A stretch of DNA of 20,608 nt. Origin: a virus. The stretch spans positions 1-20,608 of the IMG/VR virus record IMGVR_UViG_3300037104_000528. One strand, given 5' to 3'. A program made the position numbers and the translations under genes. The notes beneath the pieces are model-generated. The model was not told the origin of the DNA, ran no database searches, and saw nothing but the letters and a program-made list of their open reading frames with translations. Below, one piece after another: positions 2 through 18,912 of the stretch (position 1 is its first letter; every line of letters starts with the position of its first letter).

Positions 2-985
2 CTTTTTGTCATAAAGGCGGAAACATTATCAAGCGTATTCGGTTCGGAGTATCTTTTTAAAGGAATCAGGATGAATATCGAAGAGATAAAGTCAACCGAG
101 GGCATAGATGTCTGCTGGCTCGAGGAAGGCGCGAAAGCTTCAGAAAATAGCATGGATGTCCTGATACCGACCATCAGGAAAGAGGGCTCCGAGATAATTA
201 TAACATTCAATCCAGACAGCGAAAAGGACCCTGTTTACCATAGGTTTGTAAAAAACCCTCCGCCTGATTGCATACCCAAAGAGATAAACTGGCGCGACAA
301 TCCGTTCTTTCCGGATGTTCTGCGCCGGGAAATGGAATACTGCCGTAAAGCAGATTACGATAAATATCTTCACATCTGGGAGGGCAAGTTTAAGACCTAC
401 TCAGATGATTGCATATTTAAAGGCAAGGTTGTTGTCGAGGAGTTCGAAACACCGAAAGATGTCGAGCGGTTCTTTTACGGGGCCGACTTTGGATTCTCTG
501 TTGATCCGACAGTCCTGGTAAGATGCTTTATTCAGGACAATATTTTATACATCGATCAGGAGGCATACGGATATGGGATAGAGGTCGATGACTTGCCGGC
601 GTTCTTTAAGAAGGTGGAAAATGATAATCGCTGGAAGATTGTAGCTGATAGCGAAAGGCCGGATACTATAAGCTATCTCCGTAAGCAGGGATTTAATATT
701 GCAGGCGCTACAAAAGGAAAGGGCTCGGTTGAGGAGGGTATTCAATTTTTGCGCTCATTCGATAAGATAATCATTCATCCGCGCTGCACAGGTACAGCAG
801 AGGATTTCGAGAACTTTCGCTGGAAAAGGGACCGCGTTACCGTTGAGATTTTGCCAGTTCCAAAAGAAGGCTCTGATCATGCGCCGGATGCCGTGCGATA
901 TGCTTTAGAGTCATGGATAACCCATGCGAGAAAAACATATAAAGCATTAAAGCATTTTGAACCTACTCACCAGAGGGTTTACTAA
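2..985 (+). CDS. terL: Terminase large subunit, C-terminal part (5' end outside window)
   Basis: ATP-driven DNA-packaging motor that also cuts the concatemer; it docks on the portal during head filling. The frame is open to the left edge, so the ATG at 71 is internal and 327 residues are visible. The Walker A half of the ATPase is missing. Visible are the Walker B-like stretch DVCWLEEGA (first Asp at residue 36 of the visible part), a linker with YDKYLHIWEGKF, and the RuvC-like nuclease domain with GADFGFSVDPT (Asp at codon 485-487), VADSERPDT (Asp at 647-649) and DHAPDAVRYAL (Asp at 875-877 and 887-889). These features fit the PBSX/Terminase_3 family, whose members are usually 420-480 residues, so roughly 100-150 residues lie upstream. 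The portal gene follows after five small genes, the normal packaging-module order. Confidence 0.93.
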   Translation, partial: LFVIKAETLSSVFGSEYLFKGIRMNIEEIKSTEGIDVCWLEEGAKASENSMDVLIPTIRKEGSEIIITFNPDSEKDPVYHRFVKNPPPDCIPKEINWRDNPFFPDVLRREMEYCRKADYDKYLHIWEGKFKTYSDDCIFKGKVVVEEFETPKDVERFFYGADFGFSVDPTVLVRCFIQDNILYIDQEAYGYGIEVDDLPAFFKKVENDNRWKIVADSERPDTISYLRKQGFNIAGATKGKGSVEEGIQFLRSFDKIIIHPRCTGTAEDFENFRWKRDRVTVEILPVPKEGSDHAPDAVRYALESWITHARKTYKALKHFEPTHQRVY

Positions 986-6940: not shown

Positions 6941-7858
6941 ATGACAAGAGCTGAAGTAGCACAACTCTATACGCCGATCTATGACGAGTTTATGCTCCAG
7001 GATTACGGCGAGGAGACACAGGTTCATCCCCAGCTCTTCGATGTCGTTGAAGACCACACCTATCAGTATAAGGTAGACGGTCTCTCCGGCTTAGGAGAAT
7101 GGGTATCAGCAACAGAAGATAGCTCGGGCGGTTTTGATGTCCCGGTATTAGGCTATCCGAAGACCTTTACACAGGCGAAGTTCTGGAAGAAATTCTACGC
7201 CTCTTTTGAGTCTGTAGATCAGGACGAATACGCCCTCTTGAAGAAAGAAGGCGACGCGCGCTCTATGGGTAGAGGCGGACGTTCGAAAGTTGAACGTGAT
7301 ACGGCAGGGGTCATCATAAACGGCTTCACGACCGCTTGCCCGGACGGGCAGTTCCTTTTCTCGGCATCACATCCGAAGAACTCGGATGAAACGGGCACTC
7401 TTTACGACAACCTGCTTGCAGGCCCGTTCTCACATGACAACCTTGAAGCTGCTGAGAAATTAATATCGGCGAACTTGAAAGATCCGATGGGGATACCGAT
7501 TCCCGTTCCCGAGAAGGCGATACTCTTTTATGCTCCGGCTTTACGTGGGGTGGTAGATAGGGTATTGAACGCCCGCGCTTTAGAGCGCCCGGGAACCGTT
7601 AACCGTGATATCAACCGCTTTGCCGGGAAATATGATCCGATAGAGTGGAGATATCTCGCCTCGGATATGGGCGGTAGCGATACCATTTGGGGTATCCTAT
7701 ATCCGACCTTGAAGATGTTAAAGATAGTCTGGTCGGCGAAACCGTCTTTTTCAAGCTGGATAGACGAGGACTTGGAACGCTATTTCTTCAAGGGCCGTAT
7801 GCTTTACGATACCGGCGCAACCGATTGGCGGTCAATCTTCGCCTCAACCGGCGCTTAA
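6941..7858 (+). CDS. Major capsid protein, HK97 fold (Mu gpT-like type)
   Basis: 305 residues, with AAAAGGAGAATGAA before the ATG. It builds the icosahedral shell. Recognisable parts are an N-terminal segment with YTPIYDEFMLQDYG, a beta-rich E-loop-like region (GEWVSATEDSSGGFDVPVLGY), the spine/P-domain helix segment (ARSMGRGGRSKVERDTAGVI, in pieces), then the LFSASHPKNSDE motif. In my experience 'LFSxxHPN' is diagnostic of the gpT/encapsulin-like capsid group. A-domain strands follow (KAILFYAPALRGVVDRVLN), and the C-terminus has a P-loop-like WRYLASD and FFKGRMLYDTGATDW. About 300 residues is usual for this group. No prohead protease or cleaved delta domain is evident. Confidence 0.85.
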   Translation: MTRAEVAQLYTPIYDEFMLQDYGEETQVHPQLFDVVEDHTYQYKVDGLSGLGEWVSATEDSSGGFDVPVLGYPKTFTQAKFWKKFYASFESVDQDEYALLKKEGDARSMGRGGRSKVERDTAGVIINGFTTACPDGQFLFSASHPKNSDETGTLYDNLLAGPFSHDNLEAAEKLISANLKDPMGIPIPVPEKAILFYAPALRGVVDRVLNARALERPGTVNRDINRFAGKYDPIEWRYLASDMGGSDTIWGILYPTLKMLKIVWSAKPSFSSWIDEDLERYFFKGRMLYDTGATDWRSIFASTGA

Positions 7859-7878: not shown

Positions 7879-8322
7879 ATGAAGAAGTTATTTGTAGTTC
7901 TCATGACTCTGGCCCTTTTGGTCGGAGTCGGTTCTAAAGCGTTAGCGACAGCCGATATCACGGCTTCCACAGGCGGAAGCTCGATAGGAACGGTCAAAGC
8001 GTATACGATGATCAACACAAGCGTCAATTACGAAGTGACCAATATTCCTGTCGGGACGATTACGCCCGGGGAGTGCCAGATACTTGGCTACTCGGCAAAC
8101 CTGATAAAAGGCGGGACACAGGACGGACTTTTCGGCATAAGAGACGCCATTTCTACTACGCCAATGGCGGATAGCTTTATCATAGCTGAAAACGAAGCTA
8201 CTGCTGCCCTTCCGGTCAACCAAATATTCCCAAGAGGGATGGATATATCCCGAGGAATAAGGGTTAATCAGTCAGGCATGACGAGCGTAACAATCTATTA
8301 CATAAGGTTAATAGCACCGTAG
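7879..8322 (+). CDS. Secreted beta-rich protein, family paralog A
   Basis: 147 residues. The start at 7879 has AAAGGA 11 nt upstream and opens with a textbook signal peptide (MKKLFVVLMTLALLVGVG, likely cleavage KALA|TADI after 23). A longer in-frame extension inside the capsid gene is not credible. The mature part is beta-rich: TITPGECQILGYSANL, AENEAT, then GIRVNQSGMTSVTIYYIRL at the end. The same framework recurs in the products at 9282 and 10909, so these are one paralogous family. No known family recognised. It may be a virion surface protein or a protein left on or outside the host cell. It directly follows the major capsid gene. Confidence 0.8.
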   Translation: MKKLFVVLMTLALLVGVGSKALATADITASTGGSSIGTVKAYTMINTSVNYEVTNIPVGTITPGECQILGYSANLIKGGTQDGLFGIRDAISTTPMADSFIIAENEATAALPVNQIFPRGMDISRGIRVNQSGMTSVTIYYIRLIAP

Positions 8323-8331
8323 GTGAAGACA

Positions 8332-9285
8332 ATGGCTTGGCTTCGGGGACTTACCTCCCCGAAGCCTTCCATCTTTGATTTAGCAGTCGCCGGGATTTTA
8401 TCTGTCGGATTCCTTCCTGATAGATTTTATCAAGGAATGTTCCTTGTCTTTTATTCCCTGTTCGTATTCTGCCTCACCTTTTTTATGAAGCCCAAGCGCG
8501 AGTTCAATTCCCTTCCGCTTGCCCTGTTCGTCTTATGGTCTTTTTTCATGATATTTGTCCACAATAAGATTCAGATAGTTCCGGGAAACTTTATGAATCA
8601 ATGGCTTAACATGTCGATAATGTTCGAAGGATTTATTTATATCCTGTTCGGGTATCTTTTTATAAGGAATATAGTTATCTATTCAAGCAACCTTAAATTC
8701 ATATTCTTGCTCCTTCCTTTCGCCCTTATCCCTACGATAAAGATTTATACCATCGGCGGCCAGATGACTATCTATATGGCGCTCATATTAAGCGTAATCA
8801 TTTATTTATTCCTAAAAAGGAAGAATACTATTGCCATAATATTAAGCATTATGTCGGCAACAGAAGTCATCGGCCTGTGGCCTTACGTGGTCAAAAAGTT
8901 CTCCTGCCGGCCCGTTGTATGGCACCAGCTATTCCTTGAAATACACAAACATCCTTTTATAGGCAGCGGCTTCAACCATACTTTACAGCCTAATAATATG
9001 ATATGGGTCAACTATATCGGCAATGTAAATTACGGGTGGATATTCAGGCATAACGACCTCTTGTCTATCGGGGCATACCTCGGGGCGGTAGTGATATTAT
9101 TCCTTGTCTGGTTTATCGCCGAGAGTTTGGTGAGGATAGGAAAGACTATTTATATTATTCCATTCTTGACAATAGCTTTAGCTTCATTTTTCCAATTAAT
9201 TTTATTTGATCCGGTAAAAGGGGCAATTTGTCTTACGTTAATCGGGGTGTGTCTCAAGGAAACTTACAAAGGAGAGAAGGCATGA
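8332..9285 (+). CDS. O-antigen polymerase/ligase-like (Wzy_C/WaaL-type) membrane protein
   Basis: 317 residues from the ATG at 8332 (AGGTGA 5 nt upstream; the GTG at 8323 has no ribosome binding site). About 8-10 hydrophobic segments span most of the chain. The large loop near 190-242 carries the Wzy_C hallmarks: R193-PVVW, H207-PFIGSGF, and H240-ND followed by L-SIGAYLGA. Known WaaL/Wzy enzymes need Arg and His residues in this periplasmic loop, about 50 residues apart, and R193 to H240 is 47. Family role: joining or polymerising undecaprenyl-linked glycans on the periplasmic face of the inner membrane. It is shorter than typical (about 400). In this late operon, flanked by secreted paralogs A and B, it may alter host surface glycans. 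Substrate unknown. Confidence 0.7.
   Translation: MAWLRGLTSPKPSIFDLAVAGILSVGFLPDRFYQGMFLVFYSLFVFCLTFFMKPKREFNSLPLALFVLWSFFMIFVHNKIQIVPGNFMNQWLNMSIMFEGFIYILFGYLFIRNIVIYSSNLKFIFLLLPFALIPTIKIYTIGGQMTIYMALILSVIIYLFLKRKNTIAIILSIMSATEVIGLWPYVVKKFSCRPVVWHQLFLEIHKHPFIGSGFNHTLQPNNMIWVNYIGNVNYGWIFRHNDLLSIGAYLGAVVILFLVWFIAESLVRIGKTIYIIPFLTIALASFFQLILFDPVKGAICLTLIGVCLKETYKGEKA
8339..8366 (+). promoter_or_regulatory. Perfect 11-bp hairpin in the first codons of the Wzy-like gene
   Basis: GGCTTCGGGGA (8339-8349), loop CTTACC, TCCCCGAAGCC (8356-8366). It begins at codon 3 of the membrane-protein gene, 17 nt after the stop of the preceding secreted-protein gene. No run of T follows (TTCCATCTTTG), so it is a poor intrinsic terminator. 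It could limit ribosome entry or mRNA decay for this gene. Confidence 0.6.
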
Positions 9286-9680
9286 ATAAGAGATTCTGGG
9301 CGGTAATAGCTTTATTGTTGGTTTCGGGGATGGCTTTCGGAAGTGATGCTTCCACGTCCAAACAGGTTTATTCATTCGGGTTGATAAACTCAGGCGCATC
9401 GAGGATGATAACCATAATCCCGACCACTTCCATAAGACCGGGGACGGACAAGATAATCGGGTATTCCATAATGCCGGCGAAGGCCGGGGCATCCGAGCTA
9501 TACGTCGCCATATTCGACCAGACGACTAACTGGCTTTCGGGTGAGGTATTCGCCGAGAACGAGGTCTTGACCCCTTACGGCGCGGGGGAGTTGTGGCCGT
9601 ACGGGAAGAAGATAGTACAGGGTGTCGTGGTTAGTCAGGGCGCTAATACACAGATACAAGTATATTTCATATCGGAATAA
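9282..9680 (+). CDS. Secreted beta-rich protein, family paralog B
   Basis: 132 residues. The ATG overlaps the previous stop (ATGA) and has AAAGGAGAGAAGGC upstream; the in-frame codons before it are not needed. Signal peptide MNKRFWAVIALLLVSGMAFG, likely cleaved AFG|SDAS after 20. The mature part matches paralogs A and C in order: SIRPGTDKIIGYSIMP, FAENEV, LWPYGKKIVQGVVVSQG, TQIQVYFIS. It has no cysteine. The family function is unknown; the all-beta pattern and small size suggest a surface or virion-decoration protein. It directly follows the O-antigen-type membrane gene, so A and B bracket that gene. Confidence 0.8.
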   Translation: MNKRFWAVIALLLVSGMAFGSDASTSKQVYSFGLINSGASRMITIIPTTSIRPGTDKIIGYSIMPAKAGASELYVAIFDQTTNWLSGEVFAENEVLTPYGAGELWPYGKKIVQGVVVSQGANTQIQVYFISE

Positions 9681-9683
9681 ACT

Positions 9684-10034
9684 ATGGGCGATAAAAACTC
9701 TCTAAAACTTGACATTACTTCTTTTCAGAATCTGGCTCTTGCTCCACTCAGCTACACTACGGTCCTGACCCGTCGCTTCAGGCTGAGCCAGATTCTTTTC
9801 CACGCCTCAGTCGCTATCACGGAAACCATAAAGACGACGTTTGTTTCCCATAACGGGACGAATTATAACGTGGTTCTGGACCAGATAACCCTGACCTCCG
9901 AACAGGACTATATCTTCGCCCCGAAGAATAAGATCGACTTCTACGAGGGCGACAAGTTGAAGATAGAATGCACCAACGCTAATCTAACGGGCGTGATCTA
10001 TGCCACAATCAAAACGGAGGAGAAACTGCTCTGA
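9684..10034 (+). CDS. Beta-sandwich virion-type protein without signal peptide
   Basis: 116 residues, 3 nt after the previous stop, with only a weak CGGA upstream. All-beta pattern: RRFRLSQILFHASVAITETI, NYNVVLDQITLTSEQDYIF, then KIDFYEGDKLKIECTNANL and VIYATIK. The 'EGDKLKIECTN' strand with a preceding 'P-x-N-K-I-x-F' resembles small beta-sandwich proteins common beside phage tail and fibre genes, as I remember them. Its strand order also resembles the secreted paralogs A-C, so a common fold is possible but unproven. A 12-bp inverted repeat lies in its first 40 codons. Probably a minor structural protein. Confidence 0.65.
   Translation: MGDKNSLKLDITSFQNLALAPLSYTTVLTRRFRLSQILFHASVAITETIKTTFVSHNGTNYNVVLDQITLTSEQDYIFAPKNKIDFYEGDKLKIECTNANLTGVIYATIKTEEKLL
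9727..9796. repeat. 12-bp perfect inverted repeat with 46-nt spacer
   Basis: AGAATCTGGCTC at 9727-9738 and its exact reverse complement GAGCCAGATTCT at 9785-9796, both inside the coding sequence of the 9684 gene. It could form a long-loop stem in mRNA. No protein-binding role is evident. Confidence 0.5.
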
Positions 10035-10912
10035 TGCCTACTAAAGAGGAACTTCAAAAAGAAATCAACGGTCTTGAGCTTGAGATAAGGGTTCTTCGTC
10101 CAAAAAGAGATGATCTTCAAAACGATATCAAGAACTTAACTATTAAGAAAGGTCAAGAAAGCGATAAGCTAACTGATGCTATAAAGAAAACTGCTGACGC
10201 TATGGACGAGTTAAAGGTAGTTCAAGGTAAAGTTTCGGATGCTAAGACGGAACTGAAGGATACCCAGTCCAAGACTACAGACGAAATAAATAAGCAGAAA
10301 GTTGAGCAGGTCAAGAACCAGAAGATCCTTGATGATATAGATATTGCCTCAAAAGATTTAGACAAGAAGAAATCAGATATTGCTTCCTCCGACCAGGCTA
10401 CGAAAGACTTGATTAAATCCCAGCTTGGAGAGAGGGCGAAACTTGACCAAGACAAAGCTGCTCATCAGGATAATGTAGATAAGTTCGAAGCGGATAAGAA
10501 AACCTCCGGGGATATCATTGCCGAGGCCAACGGATATCTGTCCCAAGCTAAAGACAAGAACGAGCAGGCTGTCAAATCTTTGGAGGAGGCCGGTGCCGCC
10601 AATTCTGCAGCCGGCGCAAAAGAGAAGCAGGCCGAGAACAAGATAAAGGAGGCTGACGACAGGGTGGCCCTCGCCAACGAGACCTTGAAGGAGGCCAGGG
10701 ACAAAAAGGTCGCTCAGGACAAGCGAGAGGCCGACCTCAACGACCGGGACGCCAAGCAGAACGAGCGTGACGGAACCCTAACTGCCGGCTACGCCGATCT
10801 TGAAACCAAGAAGACGGAGTTCGGAATCCTTGAGCTGAAGCTGAAGAAGATGGCCTACGAGAAGGGGCTTCAGGCTGAGTATGACGCACTTCAAAAGGAA
10901 GTAGGGAAATGA
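10034..10912 (+). CDS. Long coiled-coil protein, possible fibre shaft or tail rod
   Basis: 292 residues, starting in a TGATG overlap with the upstream stop and with ACGGAGGAG upstream. Essentially all charged helix with heptad-like hydrophobic spacing from residue 5 to the end (KEEINGLELEIRVLRPKRDDL-type segments, later EADDRVALANETLKEARD). No signal peptide, no Cys, no enzymatic motif. Codon choice changes along the gene: A/T-ending Lys, Glu and Asp codons dominate early, whereas GAG, GCC, GAC and AAG dominate from about 10570 on, as if two sources had been joined. Possible roles are a trimeric fibre, a linker, or an internal or ejected protein. The family is unknown. Confidence 0.7.
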   Translation: MPTKEELQKEINGLELEIRVLRPKRDDLQNDIKNLTIKKGQESDKLTDAIKKTADAMDELKVVQGKVSDAKTELKDTQSKTTDEINKQKVEQVKNQKILDDIDIASKDLDKKKSDIASSDQATKDLIKSQLGERAKLDQDKAAHQDNVDKFEADKKTSGDIIAEANGYLSQAKDKNEQAVKSLEEAGAANSAAGAKEKQAENKIKEADDRVALANETLKEARDKKVAQDKREADLNDRDAKQNERDGTLTAGYADLETKKTEFGILELKLKKMAYEKGLQAEYDALQKEVGK

Positions 10913-11316
10913 AAAAGCTTATAGTCGCTTTCCTTCTATTCGCGATTCCGGCATTTGCTGGGCCTCTTGACGGGCAGGACTCTAATCTGCCTCCTAAGAT
11001 ACCTCAACTGGCCTACACCTCGGATAACAATTCGGGGGGATACCTCATTACGAACGTATCCACCTCTATAATCGATCCTACGACTTGTAAGATACTTGGC
11101 TTCGAGGTTCTGCCTTTGTCGGTCAATGGGGAGTTCGTCGCTACCCTCCACGATACCATTACTTCAATTTCCAACACGACGATAATGGGGGAACTTGAAT
11201 GCGTCAACCAGAGTTTCGCCGGTGCGTGGTATCCGTATCCGGTCAGGTTATTCAACGGGCTTCGCATAATCCAGGGAGGCCAGACGAGAGTCATTGTCTA
11301 TTATACGAGATATTAA
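10909..11316 (+). CDS. Secreted beta-rich protein, family paralog C
   Basis: 135 residues. The start is an ATGA overlap with the coiled-coil gene, with AAAAGGAAGTAGGG upstream. Signal peptide MKKLIVAFLLFAIPAFA, cleaved AFA|GPLD after 17. The mature part shares the A/B framework: SIIDPTTCKILGFEVLP, GELECVNQ (where A and B have AENE), WYPYPVRLFNGLRIIQGGQT, RVIVYYTRY. Two cysteines (in TTCK and LECV) could pair if it is exported. It lies immediately upstream of, and overlaps by 23 nt, the tail-spike gene, which may mean that it works with the spike. Function unknown. Confidence 0.8.
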   Translation: MKKLIVAFLLFAIPAFAGPLDGQDSNLPPKIPQLAYTSDNNSGGYLITNVSTSIIDPTTCKILGFEVLPLSVNGEFVATLHDTITSISNTTIMGELECVNQSFAGAWYPYPVRLFNGLRIIQGGQTRVIVYYTRY

Positions 11317-14266
11317 AAGGATAGTTTTATCCGCTTTTATATTATGCCTTATCATTCCACAGGCACATTCAAACGGATCGTGGTATGGCGGGAGCAGCGG
11401 AAGTGGCGGCGGTGGAGTAAGCCAATCTTATGTCTTAAATAATTTTTTATCCCTCGCCGCCCCCAACCAGACCGTCACCCAGACACCTAATTTCAGCGGG
11501 GGGCTGACTTCTGGTGGTAATACTGTTTTAACTTCCGTTACAGGCCTCCTCGCCACAGGTGCGACCACAGGGGCGACAGGACAGATTCAACCTTTTACTC
11601 TTGGCGTAAGCGGTGCAGGGGTTATGCTTCATCCCTCCGCTACGGTAGTCGTTGCTTCATCCACTTCAAGGGGCAAGGCGGAGGCCGATTATGTCTGCAC
11701 GGGGACGAATGATGATGTAAAAATACAGGCAGCAGTTACTGCTATTGGTGCGACGGGCGGGAAGATAGTCCTCTTGGAAGGTATTTACAATATCTCAAAC
11801 AGCATAGATTTTTCTGGTTGTGGGGCTATCTCCCTTCAAGGGGCGGGGATGTCAACCGATTGGAAATATAACAAGGGGACTATCCTCAAATTAGCTAATG
11901 GGGTCAACAAACCCATAATAGTAAAGACCGAACCTATCTGGGCACAGGACTATATTTCCCCGATTTCCATAACGAACATTATGATAGACGGCAACAGGCT
12001 TAGTAATGCCAATAGCGCTTGCGACGGGATAATTTTTACCAATGTCGCCCACTCTGTAATAAGGGATGTCGGTATTTTCAGGTGCTATAACGCCGCAATC
12101 CACCTTAAACAATGTTATGGGGTAACGATAGACAACTGCACGTTAGGGGGTTGCGATTCTTCAGGAACTCATACTAATGGGGCGATTATAGCAGGGACGT
12201 GGGTTCCGAACGGATATGGTATTTACATAGATAGCAGTCCTGACAACAGGATAAGTAATTGCTATATTTGGCATAATTCAATAGATGGGATTTATGCAAC
12301 TACTGCTTACGATTTTGCCGCTACTGAAAATCTTGTAATCAATGCCTGTTCATTAAACTGGAATGATGGTTGCGGAGTTAAACTTATAAAAGGGACTAAT
12401 GCCCTCTGGGTAGGGAGGATATTCAATTCACATCTCGACGAGAACGGAACCTATGGTTTGTATGTTTCAGGCAACGTAACGAACTGGAAGATTATCGGAT
12501 GTAATTTCTTCGGCAACCAACGTATCGCAGGAACAGATACTTATGCTATCTATATGGCAGGAACAAGTGGGTATCTGGTTCAAGACTTCGATTTTCTTGG
12601 TTGTGCTTTTGATATGTATAACGCACAATCGGGGACTATCAATCAAAATGCTTATGTTCAAGGTGTAAGATTTCTCGACAATAACTTTGCATCTGGACAA
12701 AGCGGTATAGGTATAGGTCCGGATGGGACAGTAAATCCTACCAATCCTCTGACGATAAAAGGAATAGCGGGTTATAACAATCAGATAAGGTTGTATTCTC
12801 CTTACGCTACAACTGGCGGTGCTTTTTTAGGTGGGGGAGATAATAATAATTTCAACTTTGCTGGCGGTGCAGAAGTTTACAATGGTTCTTGGATAACTCA
12901 CGATGCAACACCCACTATTGTCCAAGGCGATGATGGGGCGATAACCTTCTATGCCGATACAGGGCAAACTCCTGAAACCGCTTATACTCCTACTTCAAGG
13001 ATGGCTCTTAATTCAACAGGGCTTACTGCAACTGTAAATATTACCGCTCCTCGACTTGTATCTAATATAGGAATAGGCACAGCTCCGTTTGTAGTGACCT
13101 CTACGACGCAAGTCGCTAACCTGAATGCGGCTACTGCAGGAACGGCGGGTAATGTCACAGGCACAGTAGCCGTCGGCAATGGCGGAACGAACCATACCAC
13201 CTTTACCGCCTATATGCCGATAGCGGCAGGCACTACTGCGACTGGAGCATTTCAGTCGATAGCTACAGGAACGCAGTATTATCCTTTGGTTTACAATACG
13301 AGTTCTTCCTTGCCGTCATTTACATTATTACCCGTCGCTGGGGGCGGTTCGGGAGTGGCTTCCCATACGGCTTATATGCCTATCTGCGGCGGCACAACTA
13401 CAACAGGAACAGAACAATCCATCGCTACTGGCACTCAATACTATCCGTTATGCTATAACACATCGGGTTCGTTACCAACATTCCAAGTTTTACCCGTTGC
13501 AGGTGGTGGGACGGGGGCGACTTCTGCGAGCATTACCGCTTTCAATAATATCACGGGTTTTAGTGCCGCTGGGACGACAGGAACGACATCGACGAATCTA
13601 GTATTTTCGACATCGCCAGTTTTGGTTACCCCTAATATTGGTGCGGCAACAGCAACTTCCGTGACGGCAAATAGTGGAGATTTGATTCTTAAAGGTGCGA
13701 GTGGAGGAACTCTTAAACTTTATGCCAATACCTCCGATACAGATTATATTCATATTAACGGAAATAATGGCTTTACAAATACCACCGAAATAAACTACGG
13801 AGCGAATAACGACTGGTATCTAAGCTATGGCACGACGGGACACGTATATATGAGAAGTGGAGCAAATATCAAATTTACTTTGGCGGCAGATGGCTCGACT
13901 CAGTTATCTAAATACGGGGCAGGTGCGGCAACCTTCGATGCAAGCGGTAATATCACCTCTGCTTCTGATGAGAGGTTAAAAAATATTCAGGGCGAATTTA
14001 AGGCAGGTCTTCCTGAAATACTTAAAATAAATCCCATCCTTTACAAGTGGAACAAAAAATCAGGTCTTGAAACCGAACATACTTATGTGGGTTTCTCGGC
14101 ACAGGAAATAAAGAGACTTATACCAGAGGCGGTAGGGCAAGATTCCAAAGGATATTTGACATTAAATGACAGAGGAATTACCGCCGCACTCGTCAATGCG
14201 GTCAAGGAACAGCAAAAAGAGATAGACGACTTGAAGGCACGGCTCGACAGGGCAGGGATAAAATAA
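11294..14266 (+). CDS. Tail fibre/spike: signal peptide, beta-helix, repeats, S74 chaperone
   Basis: 990 residues from a TTG at 11294; no ATG is available near, and upstream signals are weak (GAGAG), so the exact start is uncertain. Order: n-region and signal-like hydrophobic stretch 9-26 (AHS|NGS); Gly/Ser linker 27-42; a short trimeric adhesin-like part; a pectate-lyase-3-type right-handed beta-helix from about 120 to 480 (DVKIQAAVTAIGATGGKIVL, LEGIYNIS, then N-x-C turns); fibre domain to 620; two 54-residue repeats 638-745; a fibre segment; and a C-terminal Peptidase_S74 intramolecular chaperone. The S-D-E-R-L-K motif at S891-D892 marks the expected self-cleavage site, releasing about 100 residues. 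Role: host-surface recognition and possibly glycan degradation. No catalytic residues are assigned. Confidence 0.85.
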   Translation: MSIIRDIKRIVLSAFILCLIIPQAHSNGSWYGGSSGSGGGGVSQSYVLNNFLSLAAPNQTVTQTPNFSGGLTSGGNTVLTSVTGLLATGATTGATGQIQPFTLGVSGAGVMLHPSATVVVASSTSRGKAEADYVCTGTNDDVKIQAAVTAIGATGGKIVLLEGIYNISNSIDFSGCGAISLQGAGMSTDWKYNKGTILKLANGVNKPIIVKTEPIWAQDYISPISITNIMIDGNRLSNANSACDGIIFTNVAHSVIRDVGIFRCYNAAIHLKQCYGVTIDNCTLGGCDSSGTHTNGAIIAGTWVPNGYGIYIDSSPDNRISNCYIWHNSIDGIYATTAYDFAATENLVINACSLNWNDGCGVKLIKGTNALWVGRIFNSHLDENGTYGLYVSGNVTNWKIIGCNFFGNQRIAGTDTYAIYMAGTSGYLVQDFDFLGCAFDMYNAQSGTINQNAYVQGVRFLDNNFASGQSGIGIGPDGTVNPTNPLTIKGIAGYNNQIRLYSPYATTGGAFLGGGDNNNFNFAGGAEVYNGSWITHDATPTIVQGDDGAITFYADTGQTPETAYTPTSRMALNSTGLTATVNITAPRLVSNIGIGTAPFVVTSTTQVANLNAATAGTAGNVTGTVAVGNGGTNHTTFTAYMPIAAGTTATGAFQSIATGTQYYPLVYNTSSSLPSFTLLPVAGGGSGVASHTAYMPICGGTTTTGTEQSIATGTQYYPLCYNTSGSLPTFQVLPVAGGGTGATSASITAFNNITGFSAAGTTGTTSTNLVFSTSPVLVTPNIGAATATSVTANSGDLILKGASGGTLKLYANTSDTDYIHINGNNGFTNTTEINYGANNDWYLSYGTTGHVYMRSGANIKFTLAADGSTQLSKYGAGAATFDASGNITSASDERLKNIQGEFKAGLPEILKINPILYKWNKKSGLETEHTYVGFSAQEIKRLIPEAVGQDSKGYLTLNDRGITAALVNAVKEQQKEIDDLKARLDRAGIK
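13205..13528 (+). repeat. Two tandem 54-residue (162-nt) repeats in the tail fibre
   Basis: Copy 1 is 13205-13366 (residues 638-691) and copy 2 is 13367-13528 (692-745). Both read TAYMPI-x2-GTT-x-TG, then SIATGTQYYPL-x-YNTS-x-SLP-x-F and LPVAGGG-x-G. The DNA has diverged mostly at third positions. Typical fibre-shaft repeats; copy number could vary between relatives. Confidence 0.85.
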
Positions 14267-14731: not shown

Positions 14732-14851
14732 ATGAGGATATTCAAGTTCATCTTATTGCTATCTTCTAATATTTTAATCGGGATAATAATACTCCCGATA
14801 TGTTTGGTTGCGATGTTGGGCGATAGCTGGAAAAAAGCGAAAGGAGGGTAA
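14732..14851 (+). CDS. 39-residue hydrophobic micro-protein
   Basis: GGGAGGTAAAATCGG precedes the ATG at 14732. MRIFKFILLLSSNILIGIIIL starts a continuous hydrophobic stretch to about residue 29, followed by a short charged tail (GDSWKKAKGG). One membrane span, no lipobox. The last codons (AAAGGAGGG) act as the ribosome binding site of the next gene. It has the same size as the preceding micro-gene but no clear sequence similarity. A holin/antiholin-type role is plausible by context only. Confidence 0.6.
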   Translation: MRIFKFILLLSSNILIGIIILPICLVAMLGDSWKKAKGG

Positions 14852-15911: not shown

Positions 15912-16604
15912 ATGTTAATGAGCGATGTGATTGCCCAGTTTCGTAATAATAATCCAGAAATGCCGTCTAACGTCGTATCGGACGCCATTCTGCAGAATTG
16001 GCTTTTGACCGGGGATAAGGAGTTTTGCGCGGTAACGAGATGTATAATCTCAGATATCGCCATTAACTCCGTTGTCGCAACTACTATATACGATGCTGTG
16101 GCAAGATACGATCTCACGACTCTGATAACCAAATTTTATGATATAGACGAATATCCCGGAGGCGGGGTGATATATGATAACAAGCGCCTTACTAAGACCT
16201 CCCCGGCTGAGCTTGATATAAATACTCCTAACTGGAGGACAAGGGCCGCTGGGACACCTAAGAAATTTTATCGCAGGGGAAAATATCTTTATTTTGATAT
16301 CCCCGTTTCGGCGGTTAAGACTATACGGATATATACAGTCCTGATATCGGACGACTGGACACCTGCTCCCGATGTCATGCCTTTTAATCAACTCTCATAC
16401 ATGATCCCCTATCATTCATCGATGGTCACCTATCTTGAATGGAAGGCGAAGCTTAAAGTCCAGAAATTTGATGAAGCCACGGCGAAGCGGACGGAGTTCT
16501 TAGATTATGCGAAATGGACGAAAACACAAATCGGCGGGAATAAGTATTCATCCATCCATTACCAACCCCCGAATGGAACTTTAGGGAATAATGATGAAAC
16601 TTAG
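15912..16604 (+). CDS. Head-tail adaptor (connector) protein, podovirus type
   Basis: 230 residues. ATG at 15912 (a second in-frame ATG at 15918), with GAAAGGAAATAAATA upstream. N-terminal helices (MSDVIAQFRNNN, DAILQNWLLTGDKEFC), then a beta section with TPKKFYRRGKYLYFDIPV and KTIRIYTVLI, then helices (YHSSMVTYLEWKAKLKVQK). The 'GTPxxFY..g..l.f.P.p....i.i.Y' pattern is common in connector proteins that sit under the portal and join it to the tail (P22 gp4 and T7 gp11 functional class). It lies directly upstream of the nozzle-type gene, the order expected in podoviruses. No signal peptide, unlike its downstream neighbour. Confidence 0.65.
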   Translation: MLMSDVIAQFRNNNPEMPSNVVSDAILQNWLLTGDKEFCAVTRCIISDIAINSVVATTIYDAVARYDLTTLITKFYDIDEYPGGGVIYDNKRLTKTSPAELDINTPNWRTRAAGTPKKFYRRGKYLYFDIPVSAVKTIRIYTVLISDDWTPAPDVMPFNQLSYMIPYHSSMVTYLEWKAKLKVQKFDEATAKRTEFLDYAKWTKTQIGGNKYSSIHYQPPNGTLGNNDET

Positions 16605-18912
16605 AGCTTTACTTTTAATAGCGTTCTTATCAATATCATCGCTTGTCTTTGGTCAGGATGCTACTAAGAACCAGATATTCTCCCTTGACGATTTCAGCGG
16701 GGGCTTGAATACCCAACTCTCCCCTGAATCTCTCCCGGGGAAATATGCTGTTATCTGCGAGAGCGTCCGGCTTGATTCTTCCTTAAAAGAACTCGTTAAG
16801 CGTCCTTTGATTTATCTTTACGGCACGACTTCTCCTTCCGAAGCCATTACGGGAATGCACCGCCTTTATCTTAAAGACGGGACGAAGGTCTTAATAGTCA
16901 ATCATGGTTCCCAGATAGATACCGGAAACGATACCACCGGGGCTTTTACCGAGATCCTTGCTTTGACTTCCGGCAATCATCGCTGGCAATGGCTGACGTT
17001 TAATAATGTGGGGATAGGAACGGATGGATATAACCAACCTGTCAAATATGACGGTTCTTCTGCTTCGGCAACTTATCTCGGGACAGCTCTTGCTACCGCT
17101 GATGCTGTCGCTGGCAATCCGAACGGAACTTATACCTATAAAATCTCTTATTATTCGGCCTCTTACGAAATCCTCTTTAATGTAGTTTCTAATCCTGTTA
17201 CGGTTTCAAGCAAGAAAATAGACCTTTCGATGATACCGATAGCCCCGACGACTTACCTTACCGAAAACGTAGTCGGAAGAAAAGTCTACCGCATAGCTAA
17301 CGGCGGGGTGATTTGGAAACTTCTTTCTAACGGGACGATAGCCGATAATTCTACGACAACTTTGCTTGATAACGACGCTGATGGGACTTTGGGAGCGGAT
17401 TATCCTGCCGGAAATGCGACTTATACCCCGCCAAAAGGAAGACTTTGCATCATAAACCGCAACAGGGTATTTATCGCTAACGACCCGAATTATCCGTCAA
17501 GGATGTACTGGTCTGAAGACGGGCTTCCCGATGTCTTTATTACCGGACATTACTGGAATTTTAGGCCGGATGACGGCGATGAGATTACCATGTTAAAACA
17601 GCTCTATGGGCAATTCATCGTCGGAAAAACTAATACCATCCAGTATTTCAATACCGATGACGCCGACTGGTCTAACTGGGTAGCCACAGATCCTTATACT
17701 TTCGTCGGTTGTGTTGGGATGTATACCTCCGCCAATACCCCTCTTGGAATTTTATATCTCGGCAAAGACGGGCTTTATAACTTTTCCGGGACGTATTCAA
17801 AACTTATATCTTACGCCGTCAATTCGGTCGATGAAGATATCTCCCCTTCCAATATAGCGAATACCTGGGGGGAATTTAATAACAATACTTATTACCTTGC
17901 CTATTCTTCCAAGACGGTAGGCGGTTCCGTAAATAACAGAGTTCTTGTATATGACCTATTGTCAGATGCCTATGAGATAGACACCGTAGGGATAAACTGT
18001 TTTACCTCTTTTTCCGGAGGAAGTGACGGGGGATTGTTATATGCGGGTTCATCTTCTTTGGGAAATATATACAGCTTCCAGCTCGCCTCGCAGAGCATTG
18101 TTCATTCGATAAGCACGGATTTTTCGGGGACATTCACCAATTCAAGGATTATCCCTCCCGAGGCCGGTGGCGATCTGTCAAACCCTATTATAGAATTGGC
18201 TTGGGATGTAACGATAGACGGATATGGCGCAGGAACGATAGACGCTGCAACAGGTATCATAGACCGTCCGACTACGACGGGTTCATATATCTCACAAGTC
18301 TTATCTACTCCTAATATCGTATCTTATGACAAGTTATTCTGGAATAGCGTCCTGCCTGCCGGGACAACGGCTACTTTCGCAGTAAGAAGCGGGGCAACTG
18401 CGGCAGCTTGTGCGGTAGCGGCATGGTCAGCTGAATTTTCCAACGCGGCGGGATCGGATATCTCAGCTGTTGGATCCGGAGCTTATACCCAATATCGGAT
18501 AAGCCTTGCTACCGGAGATATTGCAATAACTCCTACCATAATCAAGTCCGGCGGATTCGATGTCAAGCTCACCTATAATACGCTGGGATATGCCTACGAT
18601 ACCTCGATACCTCTTCATTGGCAGAGCGGGTTCTTTGATATGGGTGCTCCGGTAAACGATAAATCCCTGACTAAATTCTCTATGGTTCACGAAGGCACAA
18701 CGGGTATCATTACCGTCAAGATAACAAACGAATTGGGGATTTTTCAGACTTTTAGCGTAGACCTTTCAACTAATCCCGAAACTTACGAAGGGTATTTTGA
18801 CGGCGGACTTCTGCGGGGGAGAAGGTTCAATGTCGATATAACGAACAGCGATTTGAATCCGTTAACGGTAAAACAGATAAGGATAATATACAATGTTGAG
18901 CCGCTTACTTAG
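16591..18912 (+). CDS. Tail nozzle/stabilisation-type protein with a signal peptide
   Basis: 773 residues; ATGATG at 16591 with TTAGGGAAT upstream, overlapping the adaptor gene by 14 nt. After a signal-like N-terminus (MMKLRALLLIAFLSISSLVFG, VFG|QDAT after 21) comes FSLDDFSGGLNTQLSPESLP, then KELVKRPLIYLYG and a long beta-propeller-like body. The 'F-x-GGLN...kRp' opening followed by repeated beta blades is typical of P22 gp10/T7 gp12-class proteins forming the tail nozzle that keeps DNA in the head. Length is larger than P22 gp10 (about 470), closer to T7 gp12 (about 794). The C-terminal 200 residues are beta-sandwich-like. A signal peptide on such a protein is unexpected. Confidence 0.7.
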   Translation: MMKLRALLLIAFLSISSLVFGQDATKNQIFSLDDFSGGLNTQLSPESLPGKYAVICESVRLDSSLKELVKRPLIYLYGTTSPSEAITGMHRLYLKDGTKVLIVNHGSQIDTGNDTTGAFTEILALTSGNHRWQWLTFNNVGIGTDGYNQPVKYDGSSASATYLGTALATADAVAGNPNGTYTYKISYYSASYEILFNVVSNPVTVSSKKIDLSMIPIAPTTYLTENVVGRKVYRIANGGVIWKLLSNGTIADNSTTTLLDNDADGTLGADYPAGNATYTPPKGRLCIINRNRVFIANDPNYPSRMYWSEDGLPDVFITGHYWNFRPDDGDEITMLKQLYGQFIVGKTNTIQYFNTDDADWSNWVATDPYTFVGCVGMYTSANTPLGILYLGKDGLYNFSGTYSKLISYAVNSVDEDISPSNIANTWGEFNNNTYYLAYSSKTVGGSVNNRVLVYDLLSDAYEIDTVGINCFTSFSGGSDGGLLYAGSSSLGNIYSFQLASQSIVHSISTDFSGTFTNSRIIPPEAGGDLSNPIIELAWDVTIDGYGAGTIDAATGIIDRPTTTGSYISQVLSTPNIVSYDKLFWNSVLPAGTTATFAVRSGATAAACAVAAWSAEFSNAAGSDISAVGSGAYTQYRISLATGDIAITPTIIKSGGFDVKLTYNTLGYAYDTSIPLHWQSGFFDMGAPVNDKSLTKFSMVHEGTTGIITVKITNELGIFQTFSVDLSTNPETYEGYFDGGLLRGRRFNVDITNSDLNPLTVKQIRIIYNVEPLT

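Follow-up and report, generated by a model that had tools for sequence, protein, structure and literature searches.

The Wzy_C genes known from phages are temperate cargo (PMC9241936, PMC9658991). The serotype-conversion Wzy proteins WzyPh1 of Acinetobacter prophages, those of the D3 type and VG_p25 of VarioGold are encoded in temperate phages outside the late genes, in VarioGold opposite to them. A gene for a phage-carried Wzy_C-type membrane protein was also present in the window, by which we mean the whole 20.6-kb stretch of viral DNA analysed here. Like VG_p25, it was located beside signal-peptide/TM proteins; unlike the known genes, it lay in the virion operon and occupied a family-wide cassette slot. 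The literature searched, of which coverage was partial, contained no comparable cassette that is both family-wide and part of a late operon.

The window was a linear IMG/VR record (a fragment) carrying genes for a Terminase_3-type terminase, a portal protein, a gpT-like capsid protein and tail proteins. The gene of interest (8332-9285, + strand) was an intact ORF of 317 aa counted from the ATG, and its product was an integral membrane protein of the WaaL/Wzy_C fold (GT-C_B), a predicted lipid-linked glycan ligase (the ligase below). An alternative GTG start at 8323 would add 3 codons, and the sequence AGGTGA (8321-8326, +), resembling a ribosome-binding site, was found 5 nt upstream of the ATG at 8332. 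The gene was on the late strand between the capsid and tail genes, after that of the Mu gpT-like major capsid protein (6941-7858, +), which formed the left edge of the exchanged cassette. Directly upstream was X (7879-8322, +), a secreted protein of 147 aa with a signal-peptide-like N-terminus, MKKLFVVLMTLALLVGVGSKALA. Downstream was Y (9282-9680, +), a secreted protein of 132 aa and a paralogue of X (29% identity over 144 aa, E 3e-15), whose start codon shared ATGA with the ligase stop codon. Next came g116 (9684-10034, +), a small conserved non-exported protein that was the right cassette edge in relatives. A third exported paralogue, C (10909-11316, +), was located outside the cassette and is a possible further acceptor.

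The sequence-only reading had placed this gene in the late operon, bracketed by two secreted paralogues, and had assigned it a Wzy_C/WaaL loop signature. The operon placement was borne out by the common strand, the capsid-to-tail interval and the stop/start overlap with Y, and the bracketing (its A and B are X and Y) by the signal-peptide-like N-termini and the similarity given above. The signature residues were found on the ORF where they had been put: R193 (CGG, 8908-8910, +), HPFIGSG starting at H207 (8950-8970, +) and H240 of H240-N-D (CAT, 9049-9051, +).

Used as a single sequence, the window ligase had no convincing match in searches of Pfam, PHROGs, NCBIfam, the PDB, phages, plasmids and viral contigs. 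When PF04932 was run on this one record, the protein matched near-full-length (profile positions 15-148 of 149) with 14.1 bits (E 4e-4), under the cut-off of 31.7 bits, and hmmscan gave no match. The route into the family was a degenerate DNA pattern for HPFIGxGF, which had 15 matches in viral contigs; two of them were sister phages encoding relatives of the window protein at the same locus (61% and 37% identity). Portal and capsid profiles then yielded 23 and 32 related loci. Among 20 related records, PF04932 matched 14, with 10 above the cut-off and all matches at the ligase locus; the best score was 49.5 bits, and the proteins above the cut-off included two in L066 and those of L074 and L076. 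A tblastn search of 50,697 phage records with two long-subfamily ligases found no relative.

A profile of 16 locus homologues searched against the PDB found WaaL as its sole sequence (E 3.3e-5), and the alignment paired R193 with R265, W197 with W269, H207-P with H279-P and H240-N-D with H313-N-D. The window protein shared 12-19% identity with the long subfamily, and hhalign connected the window subfamily with the long one at 95.9% (E 6e-9). The window-subfamily profile alone found no relevant PDB sequence, so that the link to WaaL goes via the long subfamily. In a weak test, in which the long-subfamily HMM was run on the short subfamily with shuffled controls, 2 of 5 members beat the best shuffle, the window protein not among them. 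Judged from the PF04932 matches of the window protein and its relatives and from the conservation of the Arg and His, the ligase motif is beyond chance. Membership of the ORF in the Wzy_C/WaaL superfamily is very likely; the window protein's own Pfam score being under the cut-off, this assignment is based on the fold, the profile-profile match and the locus homologues.

An AlphaFold model made from the window ligase alone was useless (pLDDT 50). The AlphaFold2 model built with the 16 locus homologues (16 sequences) had a pLDDT of 76.4 and a pTM of 0.78, and its top Foldseek match was WaaL 7TPG (E 2.9e-4, prob 1.00). Against the same structure VIA-align gave a Z of 13.3 (rmsd 4.6, 276 residues), a value to be read with the caveat that helical models may score Z ~13 by arrangement alone. 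The runners-up were the SEDS proteins FtsW/RodA, with Z of about 7-8 (best 7.8). The match to the WaaL fold was considered convincing because Z fell off sharply in the next rows, nearly the whole protein was covered and the profile search had found WaaL independently. A GT-C_B fold like that of WaaL is thus supported for the modelled protein. Structure comparison, the check that could have pointed to a different membrane family, matched WaaL and no such family, and the WaaL/Wzy-like call of the sequence-only reading stands on the fold, the residues and the relatives above the PF04932 cut-off. No match to the model was found in a viral structure library at E 0.001; the best one was weak, to an uncharacterised protein of Arthrobacter phage Faja (BFVD A0A3G2KG04, E 0.42, prob 0.72).

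Compared with WaaL (GT121; 7TPG/7TPJ, C. metallidurans), the phage protein had the same fold over 276 of its 317 residues, the R265 and H313 positions, W269, and the HPxxGxG and HND motifs. It differed in being about 85 residues shorter with 12% identity, in having Q144 at the R191 position, and in the location of its gene in a late operon and not in an LPS locus. FtsW/RodA (GT119) are GT-C_B relatives and the second-best structural match; unlike the phage protein, they have a catalytic Asp and not a His, act on a peptidoglycan substrate and matched less well.

Loss of the Arg and His residues in homologues would have spoken against the assignment. Of the 17 sequences aligned, the window included, 16 retained the Arg at the WaaL R265 position and 16 the His at the H313 position. 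At the position of R191, the first phosphate-binding Arg of WaaL, Arg was present only in L052 and L055. The ligase homologue of L100 (8367-9350) had Lys for the Arg and Tyr for the His in an intact ORF, and is possibly an inactive or repurposed copy. The dN/dS values of about 0.26 (L093/L095) and 0.2 (L093/L089), calculated from pairs of genes, indicate purifying selection on the ligase genes.

Relatives kept the gene at the same locus, a check that the sequence-only reading had suggested. In 17 contigs, including the window, a polytopic protein of 317-420 aa was encoded between the capsid gene and g116; the L104 ligase gene was identical to that of L103, and the L098 contig ended inside the gene. 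Two different Wzy_C proteins, both above the Pfam cut-off, were encoded in tandem at the locus in L066 (16241-17335 and 17224-18447). No such ORF was found at the locus in 8 related contigs (L062, L063, L080, L082, L085, L086, L087 and L090), among which L082 ended before g116 and g116 was not detected in L087 and L090. Six ligase-less records had no PF04932 match anywhere in the record.

The order of the locus between capsid and g116 was X, ligase and Y. The gap between X and the ligase was -23 to 11 nt in 12 of 15 contigs and at most 64 nt in 14; in L066 the first ligase copy stood between X and the second ligase. The ligase and Y overlapped in 12 of the 14 contigs with a defined Y, and in L052 an extra ORF was inserted between them. 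Mantel tests on the similarity matrices of 15 contigs showed that X and the ligase (r 0.87) and the ligase and Y (r 0.70) varied together (both p 0.0002), and gave 0.26 for capsid and ligase and 0.18 for g116 and ligase, the flanking genes. By these comparisons, the exchange unit is X-ligase-Y. Physical linkage contributes to this co-inheritance and alone could give the correlation; the co-inheritance is also consistent with an enzyme-substrate relation. HNH-like ORFs were seen by eye in or beside the cassette in L052 (7018-7569) and L074 (11599-12279); these are possibly homing endonucleases able to drive cassette exchange.

One Y family was found also in phages without the ligase. The S/T fractions of X and Y were 0.236 and 0.217, versus 0.206 and 0.184 in ligase-less phages, with no clear enrichment. 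The long X of ligase-less phages had an N-terminal module common to some short X proteins and was divergent downstream, like fibre proteins.

By a simple rule, signal-peptide-like N-termini were found on 9 of 25 called genes in the window versus 0 of 20 in the related-phage control L002; the rule was crude, for it missed X, whose signal is clear by eye, and counted among the nine the gene at 14808, which is probably that of a membrane protein. Sec-signal-like starts were observed on the window genes at 7879, 9282, 10909, 11294, 15374, 16591, 18893, 19185 and 20150, and on tail-module proteins of L066, L070, L074, L087, L089 and L100. They include the tail fibre/spike (beta-helix, S74 chaperone; 11294-14266, +), a possible further exported acceptor, and the tail 'phage stabilization'-like protein (16591-18912, +), to which a known relative without a signal-like N-terminus aligned only from residue 29. 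Signal-bearing proteins with the second domain of Mtd above the Pfam cut-off were encoded in L110 (4483-5349) and L115 (5735-6559), this domain being like the tropism determinant of BPP-1. One would not expect export signals on the tail proteins of phages whose assembly is thought to be cytoplasmic, and their presence also poses the question of how particles of this kind are put together.

Among 100 proteins of two 45-46 kb relatives, no glycosyltransferase or flippase was present in the 25 of 29 Pfam families listed, which included recombination, replication, methylation, lysis and GroES-like genes, and a PHROGs scan of the same proteins gave no glycan-synthesis family among the 25 of 112 families listed. 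Since the scans of these relatives revealed no further glycan gene, the glycan donor would be that of the host. No tyrosine integrase (PF00589), the one lysogeny gene covered, was found in four near-complete 42-46 kb relatives. Four GroES-like co-chaperonin genes were observed among the 100 proteins of the near-complete relatives G001 and G003. The large terminase of the window (2-985, Terminase_3-type) had no detectable similarity to that of the sister phage L046 (10317-11837), and the proteins pooled from G001 and G003 included Terminase_6C; on sequence comparison, a swap of the terminase gene appears to have taken place. Aligned with MW202601, the window terminase showed no convincing homology, and single-protein capsid and terminase scans of viral contigs gave nothing. 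Genome contigs searched with the portal and capsid profiles contained no relative, hence no host pointer.

The favoured reading, held tentatively and placed ahead of an action on the host surface, is that the enzyme transfers host lipid-linked glycans to the exported proteins of its cassette. The transferase would be made late, together with the virion proteins, and would span the inner membrane so that the loop bearing the active site faces the periplasm. There R193 would hold the diphosphate of a host undecaprenyl-PP-linked glycan, H240 would activate the acceptor, and the glycan would be passed en bloc to a periplasmic acceptor. A ligase facing the periplasm would meet exported phage proteins, because tail-module proteins carry export-like signals. 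The most likely acceptors would be these proteins, X and Y first and possibly the exported tail adhesins. With such acceptors, the enzyme would act like a protein O-oligosaccharyltransferase (PglL/TfpO) encoded beside its substrate.

PglL genes are next to acceptor genes in 21 of 31 cases (PMC3643930). The phage gene likewise adjoins exported acceptor candidates outside LPS loci, X and Y flanking it and being co-inherited with it. With PglL/TfpO/PilO it shares the superfamily, the catalytic Arg/His and this gene neighbourhood, and a GxLGQ motif that recalls Q178 of PglL is present in several members of the long subfamily. Unlike PglL, it is phage-borne, its acceptors are candidates, and the PglL_A profile (PF15864) did not match the window protein and matched L070 weakly (E 0.1, 12.8 versus 25 bits); much of the long subfamily had Thr for the Asn of GQxN (N180), and the loop in question was missing from the window subfamily. 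A wider form of the proposal, more doubtful than the favoured reading itself, is that these apparently virulent short-tailed phages decorate Sec-exported virion-module proteins with host lipid-linked glycan by a dedicated oligosaccharyltransferase, gaining a host-type sugar coat whose enzyme and acceptor genes are swapped as a cassette.

Remodelling of the host surface, the role that the sequence-only reading had suggested, is also possible, with somewhat lower probability. The enzyme would late in infection ligate or re-link host O-antigen, capsule or another lipid-linked glycan and block superinfection or re-adsorption of progeny to debris, and X and Y would be exported helpers, for example inhibitors of the host enzyme like the one in the serotype-conversion set of D3. 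Surface polysaccharide is what the known phage Wzy_C-type genes act on (WzyPh1, PMC9241936; D3-type; VarioGold, PMC9658991), and the ligase-like gene of VarioGold is likewise beside signal-peptide/TM protein genes (PMC9658991). The ligase fold is compatible, and the swapping of subfamilies at a fixed locus would suit varied host glycans. However, the genes described so far belong to temperate phages or are moron-like and do not lie in the late operon, while the present gene is within the virion operon, and the four 42-46 kb relatives carry no tyrosine integrase. Surface remodelling also does not by itself explain the joint travel of X, ligase and Y; this family-wide co-inheritance with two exported proteins points to phage-protein glycosylation at least as much as to a change of the surface.

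A true Wzy polymerase changing the linkage of repeat units or the chain length is improbable. It would share the superfamily and membrane topology, and phage-encoded Wzy polymerases exist (PMC9241936); but the nearest solved structure was a ligase, and at the H313 position, where the phage proteins have the His of ligases, most inverting Wzy polymerases of the clan carry Asp/Glu (PMC10920833). Because this acceptor-activating position is His, the protein is probably a ligase/transferase, which upholds the ligase half of the original 'polymerase/ligase-like' label and makes its polymerase half the less likely one. Some or all members might instead be catalytically idle membrane proteins that block, for example, the ligase of the host or the entry of DNA (superinfection exclusion). 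This would suit the Lys/Tyr copy of L100 and the lack of the WaaL R191 in most members, but is very unlikely given that Arg and His are so widely kept although the window protein shares so little identity with the long subfamily.

In earlier descriptions, Wzy/WaaL-like genes of phages are cargo of lysogens and alter the serotype of the host. Here, a WaaL fold holds a conserved slot in the virion operon of an uncultured group of tailed phages and is inherited with two exported proteins. Both readings of its acceptor are open to test in a laboratory glycan-donor strain. If the acceptor is a phage protein, the gene would be a phage-encoded oligosaccharyltransferase, and would provide a route of virion glycosylation unlike that of cytoplasmic sugar-nucleotide glycosyltransferases; with the host surface as acceptor, the gene would be a lytic-phase tool for surface remodelling.
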